DNA from: Candidatus Saccharimonadota bacterium
GTDB lineage: Bacteria > Patescibacteriota > Saccharimonadia > Saccharimonadales > Saccharimonadaceae
Reading direction: 5' to 3'
Assembly (NCBI GenBank): GCA_017432225.1
Contig: JAFRJN010000003.1
Span: forward strand, 1 to 45,887
DNA length: 45,887 nucleotides
Shown here piece by piece: positions 502 to 42,584 of this stretch. The notes under the pieces are model-generated. The model ran no database searches. It was not told where the DNA came from and saw only the letters and a list, made by a program, of their open reading frames with translations. The first letter of the stretch is position 1, and each line of letters begins with the position of its first letter. A program made the translations under genes and the position numbers.

Positions 502-529
502 TTGATTTTTTGGGGAAAAATTGTATAAT
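502..529 (+). promoter_or_regulatory. Promoter of cysteine desulfurase (leaderless)
   Basis: TTGATT (502-507), a 16 bp spacer and TATAAT (524-529) precede the ATG at 536 by only six bases, so the transcript should begin at or next to the start codon. Confidence 0.65.
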
Positions 530-535
530 ATAGTT

Positions 536-1807
536 ATGATTTATTTGGACCATGCGGCGGCGACGCCAGTTTCAAAAAAAGTGTTTGAGGCGATGGAGCC
601 GTATTTTTCGCATGAGTTTTTTAATCCGAGTGCGGCATATCTGCCGGCCAAGAAGGTATCTGCTGAATATGAAGCAGCTAAAGGGGTGATTGCACACGCG
701 ATTGGCGCTAAATCTCATGACCTCGTCATTACCGCCGGGGCGACCGAAGCAAATAATCTGGCATTTAGTTTTTTAAATAAAGAACCTGTATTTTCTTCAT
801 CTGGACTTGAAAAATCAGAAATGTCATACGCAGGACAGCCGGCAGAACCGTCTCCTTCGGAGACGAACCTGTCGGTGTCGTCTGGAATATACATTCCTGA
901 TTTTTCAAATCATTTTATAATTCAGAAAATACAGGTTCTTTATTTATCTACTGAACATGATTCGGTGCGGAAGGTGGCGGAAAAGTACGGTGGCGCGGCG
1001 ATTGACGTCGATAGAAACGGGCGGATTTTGCTGGATGATTTGAAGGCGAAAATTACTGATGATACTAGGCTGATTTCCGTGGCGCTGGTCAATAATGAGC
1101 TCGGGACGATACAGCCCCTGTCGGAAATCGCGGCGATAATCCGCAAAGTTCGGCTGGACCGGCTCTCCCGCGGAGTGAAGACTCCGCTTTATCTCCACTC
1201 CGATGCTTCGCAGGCGATGAATCTTCTAAATGTGAACGTGGCGAGACTCGGAGTAGATCTTCTCACCTTGAACGCGGCGAAAATTTACGGACCGAAGGGG
1301 GTGGGTGCGCTCTATGTTTCGCATGAGGTAAAGCTGAAACCATTAAATTACGGTGGCGGGCAAGAGATGGGACTCCGCTCGGGCACAGAAAATGTGCCAG
1401 GGGTGATGGGATTTGCCAAAGCAGTAGAAGAGGTAACGAAACATCTCAATGGAAATCGCAAAAAATATGCCTTGTGGCGCAAGATTTTACTAGATGAATT
1501 ACAGGGGTACGAGCTAGTCAACAAGAAGCACACACTTGACAATTTCGTAGTTCTATGCTATAATGGTATAGATGCAGAGAGATTGATCTTTCTTCTTGAA
1601 GACAGGGGTGTGTATTTATCAACTGGGGCGGCATGTGCGGCGTCTAAGGGAGTAAAATCGCATGTCTTGAAAGCGATTGGGCTATCTGATTCGGAAATCG
1701 CGGGGTCTTTAAGAATTACCCTGGGCGAGACTAATACCGAAGAGCAAATCCACGAGGCCGCGAAGCTAATTAATGAAGCGGTAAAGATAGAAAGGAGGCG
1801 AAGATGA
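536..1807 (+). CDS. Cysteine desulfurase (NifS/IscS family)
   Basis: PLP-dependent enzyme of about 423 aa that moves sulfur from cysteine to an enzyme persulfide; here it most likely feeds the adjacent mnmA. The N-terminus MIYLDHAAATP is the classic family start. ATG 536 is preferred over an upstream in-frame TTG at 521, because 521 lies inside the promoter. The PLP lysine is in NAAKIYGPKG (Lys249) and the active-site cysteine in STGAACAAS (Cys367), followed by SHVLKAIG. Between NNLAFSF and the LYLSTEHDSV strand there is an extra ~54-residue segment (about residues 82-135), poor in conserved residues. It coincides with a fold-back repeat at 779-941. The stop overlaps the mnmA start (ATGA), so the genes are translationally coupled. 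Confidence 0.93.
   Translation: MIYLDHAAATPVSKKVFEAMEPYFSHEFFNPSAAYLPAKKVSAEYEAAKGVIAHAIGAKSHDLVITAGATEANNLAFSFLNKEPVFSSSGLEKSEMSYAGQPAEPSPSETNLSVSSGIYIPDFSNHFIIQKIQVLYLSTEHDSVRKVAEKYGGAAIDVDRNGRILLDDLKAKITDDTRLISVALVNNELGTIQPLSEIAAIIRKVRLDRLSRGVKTPLYLHSDASQAMNLLNVNVARLGVDLLTLNAAKIYGPKGVGALYVSHEVKLKPLNYGGGQEMGLRSGTENVPGVMGFAKAVEEVTKHLNGNRKKYALWRKILLDELQGYELVNKKHTLDNFVVLCYNGIDAERLIFLLEDRGVYLSTGAACAASKGVKSHVLKAIGLSDSEIAGSLRITLGETNTEEQIHEAAKLINEAVKIERRRR
779..941. repeat. Fold-back element in the cysteine desulfurase gene
   Basis: This 163 bp segment is almost entirely self-complementary. The outer arms 779-796 and 924-941 are a perfect 18 bp inverted repeat (AAAGAACCTGTATTTTCT). A second pair, 807-824 and 891-908, matches at 17 of 18. 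The centre holds GTCTCC-TTC-GGAGAC flanked by a longer imperfect helix. It is open in the host frame and encodes the family-atypical insertion. The layout (arms, internal hairpin, CGGTGTCGTCTGGA-like tail) resembles the alaS/rluB/obgE elements, but core identity is weak, so membership in the same family is uncertain. Confidence 0.8.
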
Positions 1808-3130: not shown

Positions 3131-5110
3131 ATGAACGCGAATGAAATTAGACAAAAATTTTTGGATTTTCAGGTTTCTAAAGGACACAAGGTGATCCAGC
3201 CGGCGCCACTAGTGCTCGAGGGCGACCCGACGACGCTATTTACTGGGTCGGGGATGCAGCCACTTTTGCCATATCTTCTGGGCAAAGAGCACCCGGAGGG
3301 AAAGAGACTCACCGATGCTCAACCGTCTATGCGCCTGCAAGACATTGAGGATGTGGGCGACCCACGGCATACGACTGTGTTTGAGATGCTGGGCAACTGG
3401 TCGCTCGGGGATTATTTCAAACGCGAGCAGATTGAGAACTTTTTTGAATTTTTAACTTCTGTGGTGGGACTGGACCCAGAGAAGATTTATGTGACTTGCT
3501 TCATCGGCAACGAAAAATACGGCATCCCGAAAGATACCGAAGCGGCTGAGATTTGGCAGTCCGTCTTTGAAAAGGCTGGGGTAGAAGCAAAAATTGCCGA
3601 GATTGGGTCTGCTAAAGAAGGCGATAAACGGGGAATCAAGCCGGGTGAGAGGATTTTCTTTTACGATGATAAGGAGAACTGGTGGAGCCGAGGTGGCGGG
3701 TGCGAGTCCACGCCGATTGGCGACCCATGCGGGCCGGATTCCGAGGTGTTTTATGATTTTGGTGAGGACAAACAAGATGTAGAAAAATACGGACTGGCGC
3801 ACCCGGCGAGTGATGGGGCGCGGTTCATGGAAATCGGCAATCAGGTGTTTATGCAGTACCGGCGCCTAGCTGACGGGTCTTTTGAAGAACTTGAGAAGAA
3901 AAATGTGGACTTTGGTGGCGGGCTAGAGCGGATTGCAGCGGCGGCGATTGGGTCGTTTGACGTATTCAAAATCTCGCTGATGAAGCCGATCATTGAGAAG
4001 CTGGAGGCTATCTCTGGGAAGTCGTATGACAACAACACCGACGAGATGCGGGTGATTGCCGACCATATCCGGGGGGCGTATCTCTTGGCTGCGCAGGGGC
4101 TGGTGCCATCTAATAAGACTCAGGGGTATGCGATGAGGCGGCTGGTACGGCGGGCTATCCTCCGGGCGCTGGATCTTGGGATTTCGTCGAATTTCTTGTC
4201 GGGAATCGTGCCGATTGTGGCCTCTAATTATGCGGATTTGCCGGATTCGATTTTGACCCATCGGGAAGTGGCCCTAGAGGTGCTACTCAAGGAGGAAAAT
4301 GCGTTTAGAAAGACCTTGAACAGAGGTCTCAAAGAGCTCCGGAAAGCTGTTAAACAACAAAGCAAGTCCCCCTCGGGACACGGGTCGCTTCAGCCCGTCG
4401 TTACGGGTGAAGCGCCCTCTTCCTCGGTCGTAACCTCCGGACGGTCCCGAGAAGGGCTTGCTTTGTTGTCTGGATATGATCTTTTCAAGCTTCAAGATAC
4501 TTATGGATTTCCGTTTGAACTATCTGTAGAGGAGTGCTATCGCGAGGGGATTGAGCTGACGCCGAAGTATCGTGAGGAGTTTGACGCGGCTCTCAAAGAA
4601 CAGAGAGAAAGGTCGCAGACGGCCTCAAAGGGGATGTTCAAGGGTGGCCTTGAGGACCACGGTGAGCAGACGGTGAAGTATCATACTGCTACGCATCTGC
4701 TTCTAGCAGCGCTCAAGAAGCACGTTTCCCCTGATATCGTGCAAAAGGGGTCGAATACGACCTCGGAGAGGACAAGGTTTGACTTCAACTGCGACCACAA
4801 ATTGACCCCGGAGGAGATTTCGGCGGTAGAGGACCAGGTGAATGAGTGGATCTCGGAAGATCTCCCGGTAGTATTTGACGAGTACGAGAAGGCTTACGCG
4901 CGCGATACTCTGAAGGCGCATGGGCAGTTCTGGGATAAATATCCAGATGTGCTCAAGGTTTATACGATTGGAGACTTTGAAAACCCGATTTCTAGAGAGG
5001 TCTGTGGTGGCCCACACGTGGAACATACAGGGGTGATTGGGCATTTTAAGATTGTCAAAGAAGAGTCTTCCTCCGCTGGAGTCCGGAGAATCAAGGCGAT
5101 TTTGGAATAA
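3131..5110 (+). CDS. alaS: Alanyl-tRNA synthetase, lacking the C-terminal domain
   Basis: Charges tRNA-Ala. The start MNANEIRQKFLDF at 3131 fits the family and the leaderless promoter; an upstream TTG (3104) would begin upstream of the -10 box. Class II motifs include FTGSGMQPLLPYL and GGGLERIAA. The editing domain has HTATH (about residue 518) and CGGPHVEHT (about 624). The protein stops at 659 aa, right after the editing domain (AGVRRIKAILE), whereas typical bacterial AlaS is about 870 aa with a coiled coil and C-Ala domain. Residues about 408-446 are foreign-looking (SPSGHGSLQPVV, then TGEAPSSSVVTSGRS) and are encoded by a fold-back repeat placed before the conserved DTYGFPFEL segment. Confidence 0.97.
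   Translation: MNANEIRQKFLDFQVSKGHKVIQPAPLVLEGDPTTLFTGSGMQPLLPYLLGKEHPEGKRLTDAQPSMRLQDIEDVGDPRHTTVFEMLGNWSLGDYFKREQIENFFEFLTSVVGLDPEKIYVTCFIGNEKYGIPKDTEAAEIWQSVFEKAGVEAKIAEIGSAKEGDKRGIKPGERIFFYDDKENWWSRGGGCESTPIGDPCGPDSEVFYDFGEDKQDVEKYGLAHPASDGARFMEIGNQVFMQYRRLADGSFEELEKKNVDFGGGLERIAAAAIGSFDVFKISLMKPIIEKLEAISGKSYDNNTDEMRVIADHIRGAYLLAAQGLVPSNKTQGYAMRRLVRRAILRALDLGISSNFLSGIVPIVASNYADLPDSILTHREVALEVLLKEENAFRKTLNRGLKELRKAVKQQSKSPSGHGSLQPVVTGEAPSSSVVTSGRSREGLALLSGYDLFKLQDTYGFPFELSVEECYREGIELTPKYREEFDAALKEQRERSQTASKGMFKGGLEDHGEQTVKYHTATHLLLAALKKHVSPDIVQKGSNTTSERTRFDFNCDHKLTPEEISAVEDQVNEWISEDLPVVFDEYEKAYARDTLKAHGQFWDKYPDVLKVYTIGDFENPISREVCGGPHVEHTGVIGHFKIVKEESSSAGVRRIKAILE
4354..4469 (+). repeat. 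In-frame fold-back palindromic element, copy A (in alaS)
   Basis: 116 bp. The outer arms 4354-4366 (ACAACAAAGCAAG) and 4457-4469 are perfectly complementary, and the helix continues to 4379/4444 with few mismatches. The core has an inner hairpin (CGCTTCAGCCCGT with ACGGGTGAAGCG) and the tail CCTCGGTCGTAACCTCCGGA. The core is nearly identical to copy B and related to copies C and D. Read on the plus strand it encodes PVVTGEAPSSSVVTSGRS without a stop. Confidence 0.92.
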
Positions 5111-7328: not shown

Positions 7329-8089
7329 GGCTTAATTATAACACACTTTCCGGGCTTTAGGCTGCTTAATTGATATTTTCCAAAGCTGGTTCGGTGCAAC
7401 TTTTTTACTTGGTAGCCGAGAGCGGCGAAAGTGCGGCGGATCTGGCGATTACGCCCTTCGGATAATTTGACAATATATTTATCATTTTCATGAATTATAA
7501 TAAACTTACTGGGGCCGTCGTCGAGCATGATGCCGTAGTCGGAAATCATTTGCTGATGCAGAGGCTCTAGGGGCCTGTCGAGCTCGACTTCGTAAATCTT
7601 TTCTTTATGGAACTTCGGATGGGTCATCTGAAAAGCAAAATCGCCGTCGTTCGTCAGCAAAATCAGGCCGGAACTGTCTTTGTCGAGGCGGCCGACGGTT
7701 TTTAACTTTTTATATTCTTCTGGCAATAAGTCGTAAAGCGTGGGGGCTGGCCCTTGAGCGCGACGAGAGCAGACGTAGCCGACCGGCTTGTTAAACGCAA
7801 TATACAAGTAGTCCGTGTCAAACGGGATTATACTTCCGTTATACCATACTTTGTCATTTTTGTCAATACGGGCGCCGAGTTCGGCTATTTTGTCATTGAT
7901 TTTAACCTTTTTATTTTCAATCAAAATATCGGCTTCGCGACGAGAAACTCCGATGCGTTCGGCGAGAAACTTATTCAAGCGAAAAGACCCCTTCGGACAC
8001 GGGTCGCTTCGGCCCGTCGTTACGGGCGAAGCGCCCTCTTCCTCGGTCGTAACCTCCGGACGGTCCTCAGGGGTCATTTTCGCTTTCAT
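7325..8089 (-). CDS. RluB/RsuA-family pseudouridine synthase
   Basis: 254 aa, converts a uridine in rRNA to pseudouridine. An S4 RNA-binding domain starts at about residue 37 (FRLNKFLAERIGVSRREAD), followed by the catalytic domain with the invariant aspartate in GRLDKDSSGL and QMTHPKFHKEKIYEVEL. The first ~36 residues precede the normal family start and are encoded mostly by fold-back copy B (EVTTEEEGASPVTTGRS). The element sits between the ATG and the S4 domain. Overlaps are ATGA on both sides (with the response regulator upstream and the FtsA-like gene downstream). Whether it acts as RluB, RsuA or RluF cannot be decided. Confidence 0.92.
   Translation of the reverse strand: MKAKMTPEDRPEVTTEEEGASPVTTGRSDPCPKGSFRLNKFLAERIGVSRREADILIENKKVKINDKIAELGARIDKNDKVWYNGSIIPFDTDYLYIAFNKPVGYVCSRRAQGPAPTLYDLLPEEYKKLKTVGRLDKDSSGLILLTNDGDFAFQMTHPKFHKEKIYEVELDRPLEPLHQQMISDYGIMLDDGPSKFIIIHENDKYIVKLSEGRNRQIRRTFAALGYQVKKLHRTSFGKYQLSSLKPGKCVIIKP
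7977..8085 (-). repeat. In-frame fold-back palindromic element, copy B (in pseudouridine synthase)
   Basis: 109 bp. Arms 7977-7991 (AAGCGAAAAGACCCC) and 8070-8085 match except for one bulged base, extending to about 7998/8063. The core is nearly identical to copy A but is translated from the opposite strand. The inner hairpin is CGCTTCGGCCCGT with ACGGGCGAAGCG. The arms differ completely from those of copy A. Confidence 0.92.
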
Positions 8090-8463
8090 TGTTGTCTATC
8101 GCCTAAAACTTCGTGTATCGCATTTACCACATCTTCGATGCCAACCTGGGATTTGACGAGGTAGCGGTCGCAGCCGAGGCGCTCGCCGCGGAGCCTTTGG
8201 TCGTCAGCGGAAAGGGCAGTCATCATAATGACTTTGATTCCGGCCGTTTCTGGAGTATTGCGGAGAATGTCGAGCATATCAAATCCAGAAATTTTCGGCA
8301 TCATCACATCCGAGAGAATTAAGTCTGGCTTCTCACGCACGGCCACAGCCAAAGCTTCTTCGCCGTCTCCTGCCGAGACTACCTCGTAGCCTTCGGCAGT
8401 AATTCTAATGCTGTAAATCTCACGCAGCGCCGCGTCGTCCTCTACTACCATTACTTTTGTCAT
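8086..8463 (-). CDS. Stand-alone response regulator (CheY-like receiver)
   Basis: 125 aa consisting only of a receiver domain with no output domain. The acidic pair is VVEDD (Asp9/10), the phosphorylated residue is Asp52 (LILSDVMMP), the signalling Thr is at 82 (MMTAL) and the conserved Lys is 104 (YLVKS). It probably acts by protein contact, or as a phosphate relay for the kinase encoded directly upstream. Start and stop overlap both neighbours as ATGA. Without an output domain it should not be a DNA-binding regulator. Confidence 0.95.
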   Translation of the reverse strand: MTKVMVVEDDAALREIYSIRITAEGYEVVSAGDGEEALAVAVREKPDLILSDVMMPKISGFDMLDILRNTPETAGIKVIMMTALSADDQRLRGERLGCDRYLVKSQVGIEDVVNAIHEVLGDRQQ

Positions 8464-14121: not shown

Positions 14122-15473
14122 TAGTCTTCTACTAGAGTAAATTCTTTGCCAGCGATACTGATGATCGAGTCGGGTTCGGCGCCGAGGGAAGTGAGTTCGC
14201 CGCGGATGCCCATTTTCTTCATAATGTCACGGAGGCGGTTAACGGAAGCGTAGTTGTTCATATCGGTGCGGCGGGCGAACTTTTCGATTTTCTCGCCGGT
14301 GACCACGAATTTGTCGTCTAGTTTCTCAATGTTCCAAGTATCTTTTAAGACTTCTTGATTTAGAGAAATAGTAGGGATGTCTTTAGAGAAATCTAAAAAC
14401 GACTTTTCTCGGGCCGCGTCCCTCGCGCCCGTCTTCACGGGGCTCGGGCGCTTATCCTCGGTAGCGACCTCCGGAATCCCTCGAAAAGTATTTTTAGATT
14501 TCCTACAAACCTGCCAGAGTTCTCTCAAAACTTCAGTAAGTCCCGTATGAGCGGCGCTAGAGATTGTGAAAATCTGGGCATCAGGATTTTTGGCAAGGAT
14601 TGAGGACATTTGCATTTTGATAATATCTTCGTCGATGCCTTCGCACTTGGTGAGAGCGACGATTTCGGGCTTCTCGCCTAGATTGCCGTATTTTTTGAGC
14701 TCGTTTCTGATGGTCTGATAAGCTAATCCAGCGTCGTCACTATAAACATCGATGAGATGGAGCAAGACCGCAGTGCGCTCGACATGGCGAAGAAAATCGT
14801 GGCCCAAGCCTTTACCCTCGGAAGCGCCCTCAATTAGCCCCGGAATATCCGCGATCAAAAGGTCATGGCCGTCCACTGTCGCCACACCAAGCTGGGGAGT
14901 GATGGTGGTAAAGGGATAATCTGCAATCTCGGGAGTGGCGTTGGAAACGACCGAGAGAAAAGTAGATTTACCGGCGTTCGGCAAGCCGACTAGACCGACA
15001 TCGGCCAGCATTTTGAGCTCAATTTTGGCGATAAACTCCTCGCCTGGCTCGCCGACCTCGGCAATAATAGGAGCCTGACGAGTAGAACTCTTGAAATGAG
15101 CGTTGCCAAAGCCACCCTCGCCACCTTTTGCGACGATAGCGGTCTGGCCGTCCTTAATGAGTTCGGCGACTATGGCATCGTCTTTATAAACCACAGTACC
15201 AATCGGCACTTCCACTATCAAATCTTCACCGCTACGGCCCGCGGAGCGCTGACCGGAGCCATTTTTGCCATCTTTGGCAGTCAAAATCGGAGTAAAACGG
15301 AAGTCGATCAAAGTATCGGTATCTTTGTCGGCTCGAAAAACAATATCGCCGCCTTTGCCACCGTCGCCACCGTCGGGGCCACCTTTAGGAATATAAATTT
15401 CGTGACGAAAAGATACGGCGCCGTCGCCGCCTTTGCCAGCTTTCAAACTCACTTCTGCTTTGTCTACAAACAT
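14118..15473 (-). CDS. obgE: GTPase Obg/CgtA
   Basis: 451 aa ribosome-assembly GTPase. The glycine-rich Obg fold covers about 1-155 (GGPDGGDGGKGGD). In the G domain are GLPNAGKST, DIPGLIEGA and the specificity motif TKCE. The C-terminal OCT-type domain ends VNRLRDIMKKMGIRGEL... Between them, residues about 322-362 (FRGIPEVATEDKRPSPVKTG, then ARDAAREKS) are encoded by fold-back copy C. This linker position should tolerate an insertion. The start at 15473 lies six bases after a -10 box, so a leaderless transcript is expected. Overlaps the convergent LysM-CHAP gene by four bases. Confidence 0.97.
   Translation of the reverse strand: MFVDKAEVSLKAGKGGDGAVSFRHEIYIPKGGPDGGDGGKGGDIVFRADKDTDTLIDFRFTPILTAKDGKNGSGQRSAGRSGEDLIVEVPIGTVVYKDDAIVAELIKDGQTAIVAKGGEGGFGNAHFKSSTRQAPIIAEVGEPGEEFIAKIELKMLADVGLVGLPNAGKSTFLSVVSNATPEIADYPFTTITPQLGVATVDGHDLLIADIPGLIEGASEGKGLGHDFLRHVERTAVLLHLIDVYSDDAGLAYQTIRNELKKYGNLGEKPEIVALTKCEGIDEDIIKMQMSSILAKNPDAQIFTISSAAHTGLTEVLRELWQVCRKSKNTFRGIPEVATEDKRPSPVKTGARDAAREKSFLDFSKDIPTISLNQEVLKDTWNIEKLDDKFVVTGEKIEKFARRTDMNNYASVNRLRDIMKKMGIRGELTSLGAEPDSIISIAGKEFTLVEDY
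14388..14502 (-). repeat. In-frame fold-back palindromic element, copy C (in obgE)
   Basis: 115 bp. Arms 14388-14399 (GAAATCTAAAAA) and 14491-14502 match perfectly; a small internal loop follows, then ACTTTTC/GAAAAGT and GGG/CCC. The core has inner hairpin GCCCGTC-TTC-ACGGGGC and tail CCTCGGTAGCGACCTCCGGA. Translated in the same relative orientation as copy B (B: SPVTTG; C: SPVKTG). Confidence 0.92.
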
Positions 15474-39848: not shown

Positions 39849-39966
39849 AAAACAAAAAACAGACCTTTCTCGGGCTGCGTCCGGCCGGCCCGTCGCCACG
39901 GGCGGCCGGCGCTCATCCTCGCGCTGCCGCGCTCCGGAGGCCCTTCGAAAGGCTGTTTTTTGTTTT
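39849..39966 (-). repeat. Fold-back palindromic element, copy D (tsf-uppS gap)
   Basis: 118 bp that exactly fills the gap between the convergent tsf and uppS genes and reaches two bases into the uppS stop. Arms 39849-39862 (AAAACAAAAAACAG) and 39953-39966 are perfect and continue as CCTTTC/GAAAGG and GGG/CCC. The core is related to copy C (inner hairpin GGCCGGCCCGTC-GCC-ACGGGCGGCCGG-like, tail GCTCCGGAGG). Although not in a gene, the frame matching copy C is still open (EDERRPPVATGRPDAARE). It could serve as a two-way terminator. Confidence 0.9.
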
Positions 39967-41228: not shown

Positions 41229-42584
41229 ATGGATATTTTTCTAGGTATAGTGGTAGGTTTGATTGTATTAATGATCCTGGTCATCGTGCATGAGTTTGGG
41301 CATTTTATCGCTTCGAGAAAAAATGGGGTAAACGTGCTGGAATTTGGGATCGGGTTTCCACCGAGAGCGGTAGCCTGGATTAAAGACCCAAAGACCCATA
41401 AGTGGCGGAGGCTAAAGAAATCCGAATGGGGCGCGAATAACGTAGCCAAGACCGTTGGGATGGAAAAATCCAGCCAAAAGTCTGAAAAATCTGGCAAAAA
41501 CACCAAAAATCTGACCAAAAATGCGGAAAATCAGACGACGCTCCTTTCAGTCAAAAACAGAGATAAAATCATCCAGGACGGTCTGATTTTTAGCATTAAT
41601 TGGCTACCGATTGGCGGATTTTGCCAGATGGACGGGGAATCGGCCGAGGACGAGAGAAAAGGCACTTTTGGTAATGCCAGTTTTTGGAAGAAAACCAAGA
41701 TTCTTTTCGCCGGCGTGGCGATGAACTGGCTCACTGCCTTTATTATTTTGACTGTACTAGCCTGGACAGGAATGCCGACATTCCTCGACGGGCAATTTAC
41801 TATAGAAGCAGATACTAGGGTCGAGCAGACACCGGTCAAAGTAGCTTCGGTACACGAAAATTCACCGGCAGAAGCCGCTGGCTTCCAGGCGGGCGATTAT
41901 ATCTTGAAAGTAAATGATGAGGATGTGCATTATGGCACGGACATCATTGAAATAAATGAAAAAAATGCCGGGGAAGAAGTAGTCTATAAGGTCCTCCGCA
42001 AGGGCGAAGAGGGGTGCAACTGCGACCAGAATCTAGATCTAACCGCCACTTTGAACTCCGCGGACGCCGAATATTTGCTGGGAGTAGCGATGGAATCGTC
42101 GGCATCACTATCTTATTCGAGCTGGAGCGCACCAATCGTAGGGGCGGGCTTAACTCTTCAAATCACGGGCGAGACTTTTAAGGGCCTGGGGCAACTAGTC
42201 TGGAACTTGATCACAGGAGTGGGACGGCAGTTTAGCCCAGACGATTCAGTACGCGAAAGTGGCCGAGAAGCCATTGAGACGGTCGGTGATTCGGTGACGG
42301 GGCCAGTAGGGATTTTGGGAGTTTTGTTCCCATCTTTTGTTTCAACTGGGCCAGCCAACGTAGCCTTTATCGCGGCACTGATTTCGATTTCGCTAGCTTG
42401 TATGAACGTGCTGCCGATTCCGGCCCTTGATGGGGGACGGTGGGTACTAATTGGAATCTACAAACTACGCCACAAGAAACTCACCAAAGAAACGGAAGAA
42501 AAAATCGTAACTAGAGCTTTCATGGTGCTACTGGCACTAATTGCAATCGTGACAATTTTAGACATCACAAGGTTTTTTAGATGA
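41229..42584 (+). CDS. rseP: Site-2 zinc metalloprotease RseP
   Basis: 451 aa intramembrane protease. The start at 41229 (MDIFLGIVVGLIVLMILVIV) follows the leaderless promoter. The zinc site is HEFGHFIASRKNGV at about residue 22 and LPIPALDGGRW near the C-terminus. A PDZ domain is at about 195-280 (VHENSPAEAAGFQAGDYIL). An additional Lys/Asn/Ser-rich stretch (about 79-105, SSQKSEKSGKNTKNLTKNAE) separates the first helix from LPIGGFCQMDGE; it is low-complexity DNA with a weak 10 bp inverted repeat. Overlaps the next gene as ATGA. Confidence 0.95.
   Translation: MDIFLGIVVGLIVLMILVIVHEFGHFIASRKNGVNVLEFGIGFPPRAVAWIKDPKTHKWRRLKKSEWGANNVAKTVGMEKSSQKSEKSGKNTKNLTKNAENQTTLLSVKNRDKIIQDGLIFSINWLPIGGFCQMDGESAEDERKGTFGNASFWKKTKILFAGVAMNWLTAFIILTVLAWTGMPTFLDGQFTIEADTRVEQTPVKVASVHENSPAEAAGFQAGDYILKVNDEDVHYGTDIIEINEKNAGEEVVYKVLRKGEEGCNCDQNLDLTATLNSADAEYLLGVAMESSASLSYSSWSAPIVGAGLTLQITGETFKGLGQLVWNLITGVGRQFSPDDSVRESGREAIETVGDSVTGPVGILGVLFPSFVSTGPANVAFIAALISISLACMNVLPIPALDGGRWVLIGIYKLRHKKLTKETEEKIVTRAFMVLLALIAIVTILDITRFFR

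Follow-up and report, generated by a model that had tools for sequence, protein, structure and literature searches.

The window (the whole 45 887-nt stretch analysed, contig JAFRJN010000003.1 of a Candidatus Saccharimonadota bacterium) carries a nifS/iscS-type cysteine desulfurase gene whose reading frame (Aminotran_5) stays open through a large fold-back. What is such a structure in the middle of an essential enzyme's gene, and how did it arise there?

Structure of the fold-back

The outer arms, P1 and P1′, are perfectly complementary, as the earlier note had stated, yet they extend over 23 nt rather than 18 bp; they lie 127 nt apart, and no longer perfect pair within 250 bp was found in the window (Table 1). 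The second arm pair and the internal hairpin noticed earlier were also recovered: the inner arms (21 nt) are 90% complementary, and the core hairpin has arms at 839–855 and 859–875. The predicted RNA minimum free energy is −75.6 kcal/mol versus −31.8 ± 3.8 kcal/mol for 200 dinucleotide shuffles (z = −11.5), none of which (0/200) folded as well. The fold-back is genuine and lies well outside what chance would produce.

Two other inverted pairs were seen in the window. One (334–464; 22 nt, 91% complementary, 87 nt apart) lies just upstream of nifS outside the listed ORFs; the other (41520–41597; 17 nt at 88%) falls within an ORF for an M50 peptidase.

Table 1. Positions of the nifS fold-back, its parts and the F1 fold-backs in the window
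Feature	Position	Strand	Remark
nifS/iscS-type cysteine desulfurase ORF, open through the element	521–1807	+	PF00266, 7e-52
nifS start codons	TTG 521; ATG 536	+	ATG 536 likelier
F2 element body, GAACCTGTATTTTC...GAAAATACAGGTTC	781–938	+	Common to copies at other loci; stretch matched by 45/118 genus genomes
Left outer arm P1	774–796	+	774–785 (TAAATAAAGAAC) is an inverted copy of native 935–946 (12/12 identity)
Right outer arm P1′	924–946	+	935–946 (GTTCTTTATTTA) are native Val-Leu-Tyr-Leu codons, conserved in genus NifS
Inner arm P2 (GACTTGAAAAATCAGAAATGT)	804–824	+	
Inner arm P2′ (ACATTCCTGATTTTTCAAATC)	891–911	+	
Conserved internal loop and left side of covarying 3-bp stem (GTCATACGC-GG-NNN motif)	825–838	+	Invariant columns; columns 28–34 covary with 74–82
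Apical hairpin CCGGCAG-AAC-CGTCTCC-TTC-GGAGACG-AAC-CTGTCGG, symmetric AAC/AAC internal loop	839–875	+	
Right half of the covarying stem, with the conserved GGAATATAC internal loop	876–890	+	Invariant and covarying columns
F1 (A–D) fold-back	4354–4469		In AlaRS
F1 (A–D) fold-back	∼7977–8090		Pseudouridine synthase N-terminus
F1 (A–D) fold-back	∼14388–14503		In Obg
F1 (A–D) fold-back	39849–39966		Between genes, after EF-Ts

An insert at a short loop of NifS

We compared 56 NifS loop sequences of the genus, related loci included. In 32 of them the loop has 14–24 aa and residues 82–135 of the window protein (counted from ATG 536) are absent; the other 24 have a longer insert at exactly the same place, with lengths that are all multiples of three. 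The proposal that the fold-back is an insert at a normally short loop is thus borne out by the protein alignment. An insert-free orthologue (L202) matches the structure PDB 4r5f (3.8e-63), and no interrupted gene was found among the NifS genes examined.

The AlphaFold model (alignment of 38 sequences, moderate quality, mean pLDDT 69.6) predicts residues 83–127, between a helix at 68–79 and a strand at 132–136, to be a disordered loop (pLDDT < 50), putatively at the surface. With the segment missing from most orthologues and predicted to be disordered, a conserved NifS domain, the finding that the earlier note had named as fatal to its reading, was excluded.

In a tree built without the loop, the window NifS groups with three empty relatives (L202, L031 and L206). 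Gain and loss of the element (F2, see below) in NifS need four changes, three of them forced by well-supported branches; F2 therefore entered the site repeatedly, unless species exchanged NifS alleles. We judge the window copy to be young, and not old as had been suggested, from its perfect arms and the lack of an insert in its nearest relatives, L202 and L031. The same loop hosts F2, F1 (the A–D elements of the window), reversed F1, F3 and F4.

F2, a genus-restricted family with a covarying core

When the 118 genomes available for the window's genus were searched with the element's DNA, 45 gave matches. It is thus a dispersed repeat, which we designate F2; it comprises ∼100 unique copies (105 in the count used for coding analysis). 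Recurrence in many independent assemblies makes an assembly chimera (inverted duplication) unlikely. The covariance model located F2 in this genus only among the 143 genera of the order, under strict filters that weak relatives may escape. A degenerate core pattern occurred in 85 stretches among the genomes of 84 980 species, all from Candidatus Saccharibacteria and mostly from ruminant-gut isolates. Viral carriage found no support, as searched viral contigs gave no core match. The window's own genome holds a single F2 copy and eight matches to the A–D hairpin motif.

The core, aligned in 43 copies, has 24 pairs with 99.1% of cells paired, and 13 pairs are changed on both sides. Double-changed cells number 127 versus 33 in shuffles (2–18 in slid controls). 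The internal-loop bases GTCATAC/GGAATATAC and AAC/AAC are nearly invariant, which suggests recognition by a protein; one conserved G.U (columns 39–70) and two conserved A.C positions likewise hint that a specific structure is recognized. The invariant GTCAT is the reverse complement of ATGAC, which is frequent in RPE-4/6/7 (PMC3767692); with five bases this is probably chance.

F2 and F1 have the same arm behaviour, in-frame residence and sites (AlaRS, Obg, NifS and MnmA). Their separation into two families, one of the options raised earlier, is upheld, as homology was ruled out by covariance search: the F2 model scores 108 bits on the nifS element and has no match with E ≤ 10 at the four A–D sites (4354, 8000, 14400 and 39850). 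The F1 core is different (a CCCGTCNNNACGGG hairpin and a CGGT..ACC hairpin). The ‘distantly similar’ core of the earlier note is not supported: the two CGGT...GGA strings fall in different structural places, belonging in F2 to one strand of a long helix and in A–D to a small hairpin.

Other elements accompany F2. F3 elements of ∼70 bp (GGGTCCTGCC...GTCACCC) are present in NifS, MnmA and elsewhere (L218, L227, L066, L165 and others); they share their ends with full-length F2 and with one F1 element, as though a single terminal module served several cores. A small hairpin element, CGTCCGCTGG.CGTCGCCT...GCGGTC, is nested in or beside the F2 core at L213, L066 and L130, in G081 and G166.

Residence in protein-coding genes

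Genes contain 87 of the 105 unique F2 copies, with an open frame running through the element; they fall into 33 host-gene clusters, and 75 are in sense orientation (same-site copies are partly vertical, so that these counts are not independent, and the ORF search favours open frames). One frame, encoding a polar peptide, is used by 67 of the 87. Frame +2 is open in 45 coding copies and used in three, hence survivorship of open frames alone cannot account for frame choice. Sites are shared by several families: the MnmA site holds F2, F1, F3 and others, the TatD site holds F2 and F1, and AlaRS and Obg, occupied by F1 in the window, hold F2 in other species.

Strong structure within essential housekeeping genes could also point to an intron-like self-splicing element or a byp-like translational bypass, either of which would yield a NifS protein without the insert. 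A removed insert needs neither an open frame nor a length divisible by three, yet the frame is open and in phase through all 87 coding copies, unlike what is expected of group I/II introns, and lengths at the NifS site keep the frame. We consider removal extremely improbable. From the open frame and the predicted disordered loop, a host protein with translated F2 is the expected product.

Outer arms as native flank and inverted copy

The outer arms, measured in 93 F2 copies, have a mean length of 22.8 nt, differ by locus and are almost fully Watson–Crick paired. Their outermost bases are locus-specific, since in ExoIII, TatD and NifS native coding sequence forms one arm and an inverted copy of it forms the other. 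In ExoIII, the arm adjoining the insert consists of the conserved SGTAIL codons; the inverted copy is exact over 30 nt in L112 and 21 nt in both L119 and L272, and is seen with both insert orientations. Genuine empty ExoIII orthologues have longest inverted matches of 4–9 nt and mostly read (F/Y)G(D/N)PL(T/N)EGR at this place. Identity of the copy to its own native flank exceeds that to the flanks of other hosts in ExoIII (0.79 versus 0.64; 0.55 for empty sites) and in TatD (0.75 versus 0.57). Judged from these sequences, the copy tracks the synonymous codons of its own host, the own-versus-cross gap being moderate. Little inverted copy is found at L062, L182 and L178. In the window the inverted copy spans 12 nt, of which the GAAC/GTTC part (positions 781–785 of the left arm) may be F2's own end.

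Among copies with GGGTCCTG...CACCC ends (n = 41), the next five bases outward are complementary in 95, 95, 93, 85 and 68% of cases (25% expected by chance), and beyond ∼5 bases complementarity drops sharply towards background. A defined integration step would fit this drop better than random template switching, as would a preference for palindromic targets.

The latter would mean that elements insert at the centre of pre-existing short palindromes, with native flanks on both sides and nothing copied. Besides the limit at ∼5 bp, some empty NifS sites agree with such target choice: two form a 5-2-5 palindrome (L222, TGGAC-GG-GTCCA; L205, ACGTG-AC-CACGT), and L206 has CTAGATAAAG..CTTTATCTAG. However, L222 has the element's terminal GGGTCC between GTCC repeats and reads as a deletion scar. 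L206, like L222, resembles the palindromic scar of an element since lost, and at L290 an internal deletion has left a remnant. The native ExoIII motif is conserved protein sequence whose inverted match grows from 4–9 nt in empty sites to as much as 30 nt in filled ones, and the copy follows each host's codons. Target choice is an unlikely explanation.

If F2 were a functional structured RNA or ribozyme, its helices would be held by compensatory selection in the transcript, in line with the strong covariation and the invariant internal-loop bases. On the mRNA strand, however, P1 of sense copies has no excess of G.T over A.C (11 versus 42, with 16 of the A.C at one shared site), so that this test gave no support to mRNA-level selection on the arms; Watson–Crick arms of this kind are expected if DNA copying, not RNA selection, keeps the pairing. 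Variable core pairs, too, switch Watson–Crick type almost without G.U intermediates, and copies lie in both orientations relative to genes and also between genes. In Rfam the window had no match at the gathering cut-off, and a scan of F2 loci at E ≤ 1 gave no hit above it. Read on the minus strand, the two conserved A.C sites become G.U and may reflect a minus-strand RNA. Overall, we hold an RNA function to be very unlikely.

Candidate machinery

F2 resembles REP elements and MITEs in being short, palindromic and non-autonomous. A classical MITE with terminal inverted repeats and direct target duplication, moved in trans by a transposase as in the REP/RAYT system, would explain the small size and inverted ends, and the GGGTCCTG...CACCC ends shared by F2, F3 and one A–D element suggest shared machinery. 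Against this, only five of the 118 genus genomes have a Y1 transposase (PF01797), and the F2-rich genomes G054, G081, G075 and G007 are not among them, so that RAYT mobilization is ruled out for F2-rich genomes. No consistent direct target duplication was found (one F3 pair is compatible with a 4-bp GTCC repeat); flanks are inverted, and F2 differs also by its in-frame intragenic residence. We regard the MITE reading as quite unlikely.

A link to reverse transcriptase was not supported: RVT_1 is present in 32 of 45 F2-positive and 38 of 73 F2-negative genomes, a comparison confounded by kinship, and the F2-rich G081 lacks it. RVT_1 was seen in 70 of 118 genus genomes, mostly in frames of ∼380–430 aa, perhaps of diversity-generating retroelements.

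It is a doubtful extension that several unrelated Saccharibacteria families share one integration mode, in which a folded strand joins the target and self-primes, duplicating the flank in inverted form. Such fold-back-primed transposition would run without a recognizable transposase, and its target duplication would be inverted, not direct.

Proposed mode of spread

The explanation we favour, with a probability of about 0.7, is that F2 is a selfish element resembling the Rickettsia palindromic elements (RPEs), whose arms grow and stay perfect through template switching on the fold-back. The window fold-back would be one young copy of a genus-restricted group of short, non-autonomous, structured palindromic repeats moving through Saccharibacteria genomes. 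Insertion would depend on an enzyme, of the host or of a mobile element, that recognizes the conserved core. As the element inserts, or later, the nascent strand would fold back on the palindrome and copy the native flank, lengthening the arm outward, and template switching would keep the arms identical. Reverse-complement copies are known to arise by template switching, which also homogenizes arms and repairs stems without G.U intermediates (PMC8794818, PMC8604942); the lack of G.U excess and the tracking of native codons fit this process. Loss by deletion between arms would leave short palindromic scars.

F2 probably survives in essential genes because one of its frames is stop-free and polar and the site is a tolerant loop, presumably at the surface, that could accept ∼50 extra residues. 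By analogy with RPEs, it would be translated within the host protein and not removed.

Relation to known systems and implications

RPEs are palindromic repeats of 100–150 bp found in frame in housekeeping ORFs, which they leave unbroken (PMC10969869, PMC3767692), and a given locus can carry different families in orthologous genes (PMC3767692). F2 is like RPE-1 to RPE-10 and their Wolbachia relatives in size (∼100–150 bp), in having many copies per genus, in leaving the host frame intact and in sharing orthologous sites with other families. In contrast, no shared sequence was found, the F2 core pattern being confined to Saccharibacteria (a test with a single degenerate pattern). Neither a covarying multi-loop core nor host-derived inverted outer arms, both features of F2, were found reported for RPEs in the open-licence literature. 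Quasipalindrome mutations by template switching likewise create and homogenize inverted-repeat arms (PMC8794818, PMC8604942, PMC7202029); they arise at any inverted repeat, whereas in F2 a mobile element would be the substrate and host flank would be copied.

We conclude that F2 forms a new family of protein-coding palindromic elements. It behaves like RPEs but is unrelated to them by the pattern test made, and its arms are host-derived. In the open-licence literature, protein-coding palindromes have so far been described as a feature of Rickettsia and Wolbachia, and we found there no reports of palindromic elements in Patescibacteria, CPR or Saccharibacteria.

The perfect compensatory pairing of F2 is a warning that such pairing need not mean RNA function. 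To our knowledge, the origin and movement of protein-coding palindromes are an open question. Comparison can test it in an independent genus-wide system with ∼100 copies, in which filled and empty orthologues form many pairs, several families occupy the same codons and the arms derive from the host. Conserved enzymes such as NifS, MnmA, TatD, TsaD, ExoIII, TrmD, AlaRS and Obg would gain loops of ∼50 residues from selfish DNA.
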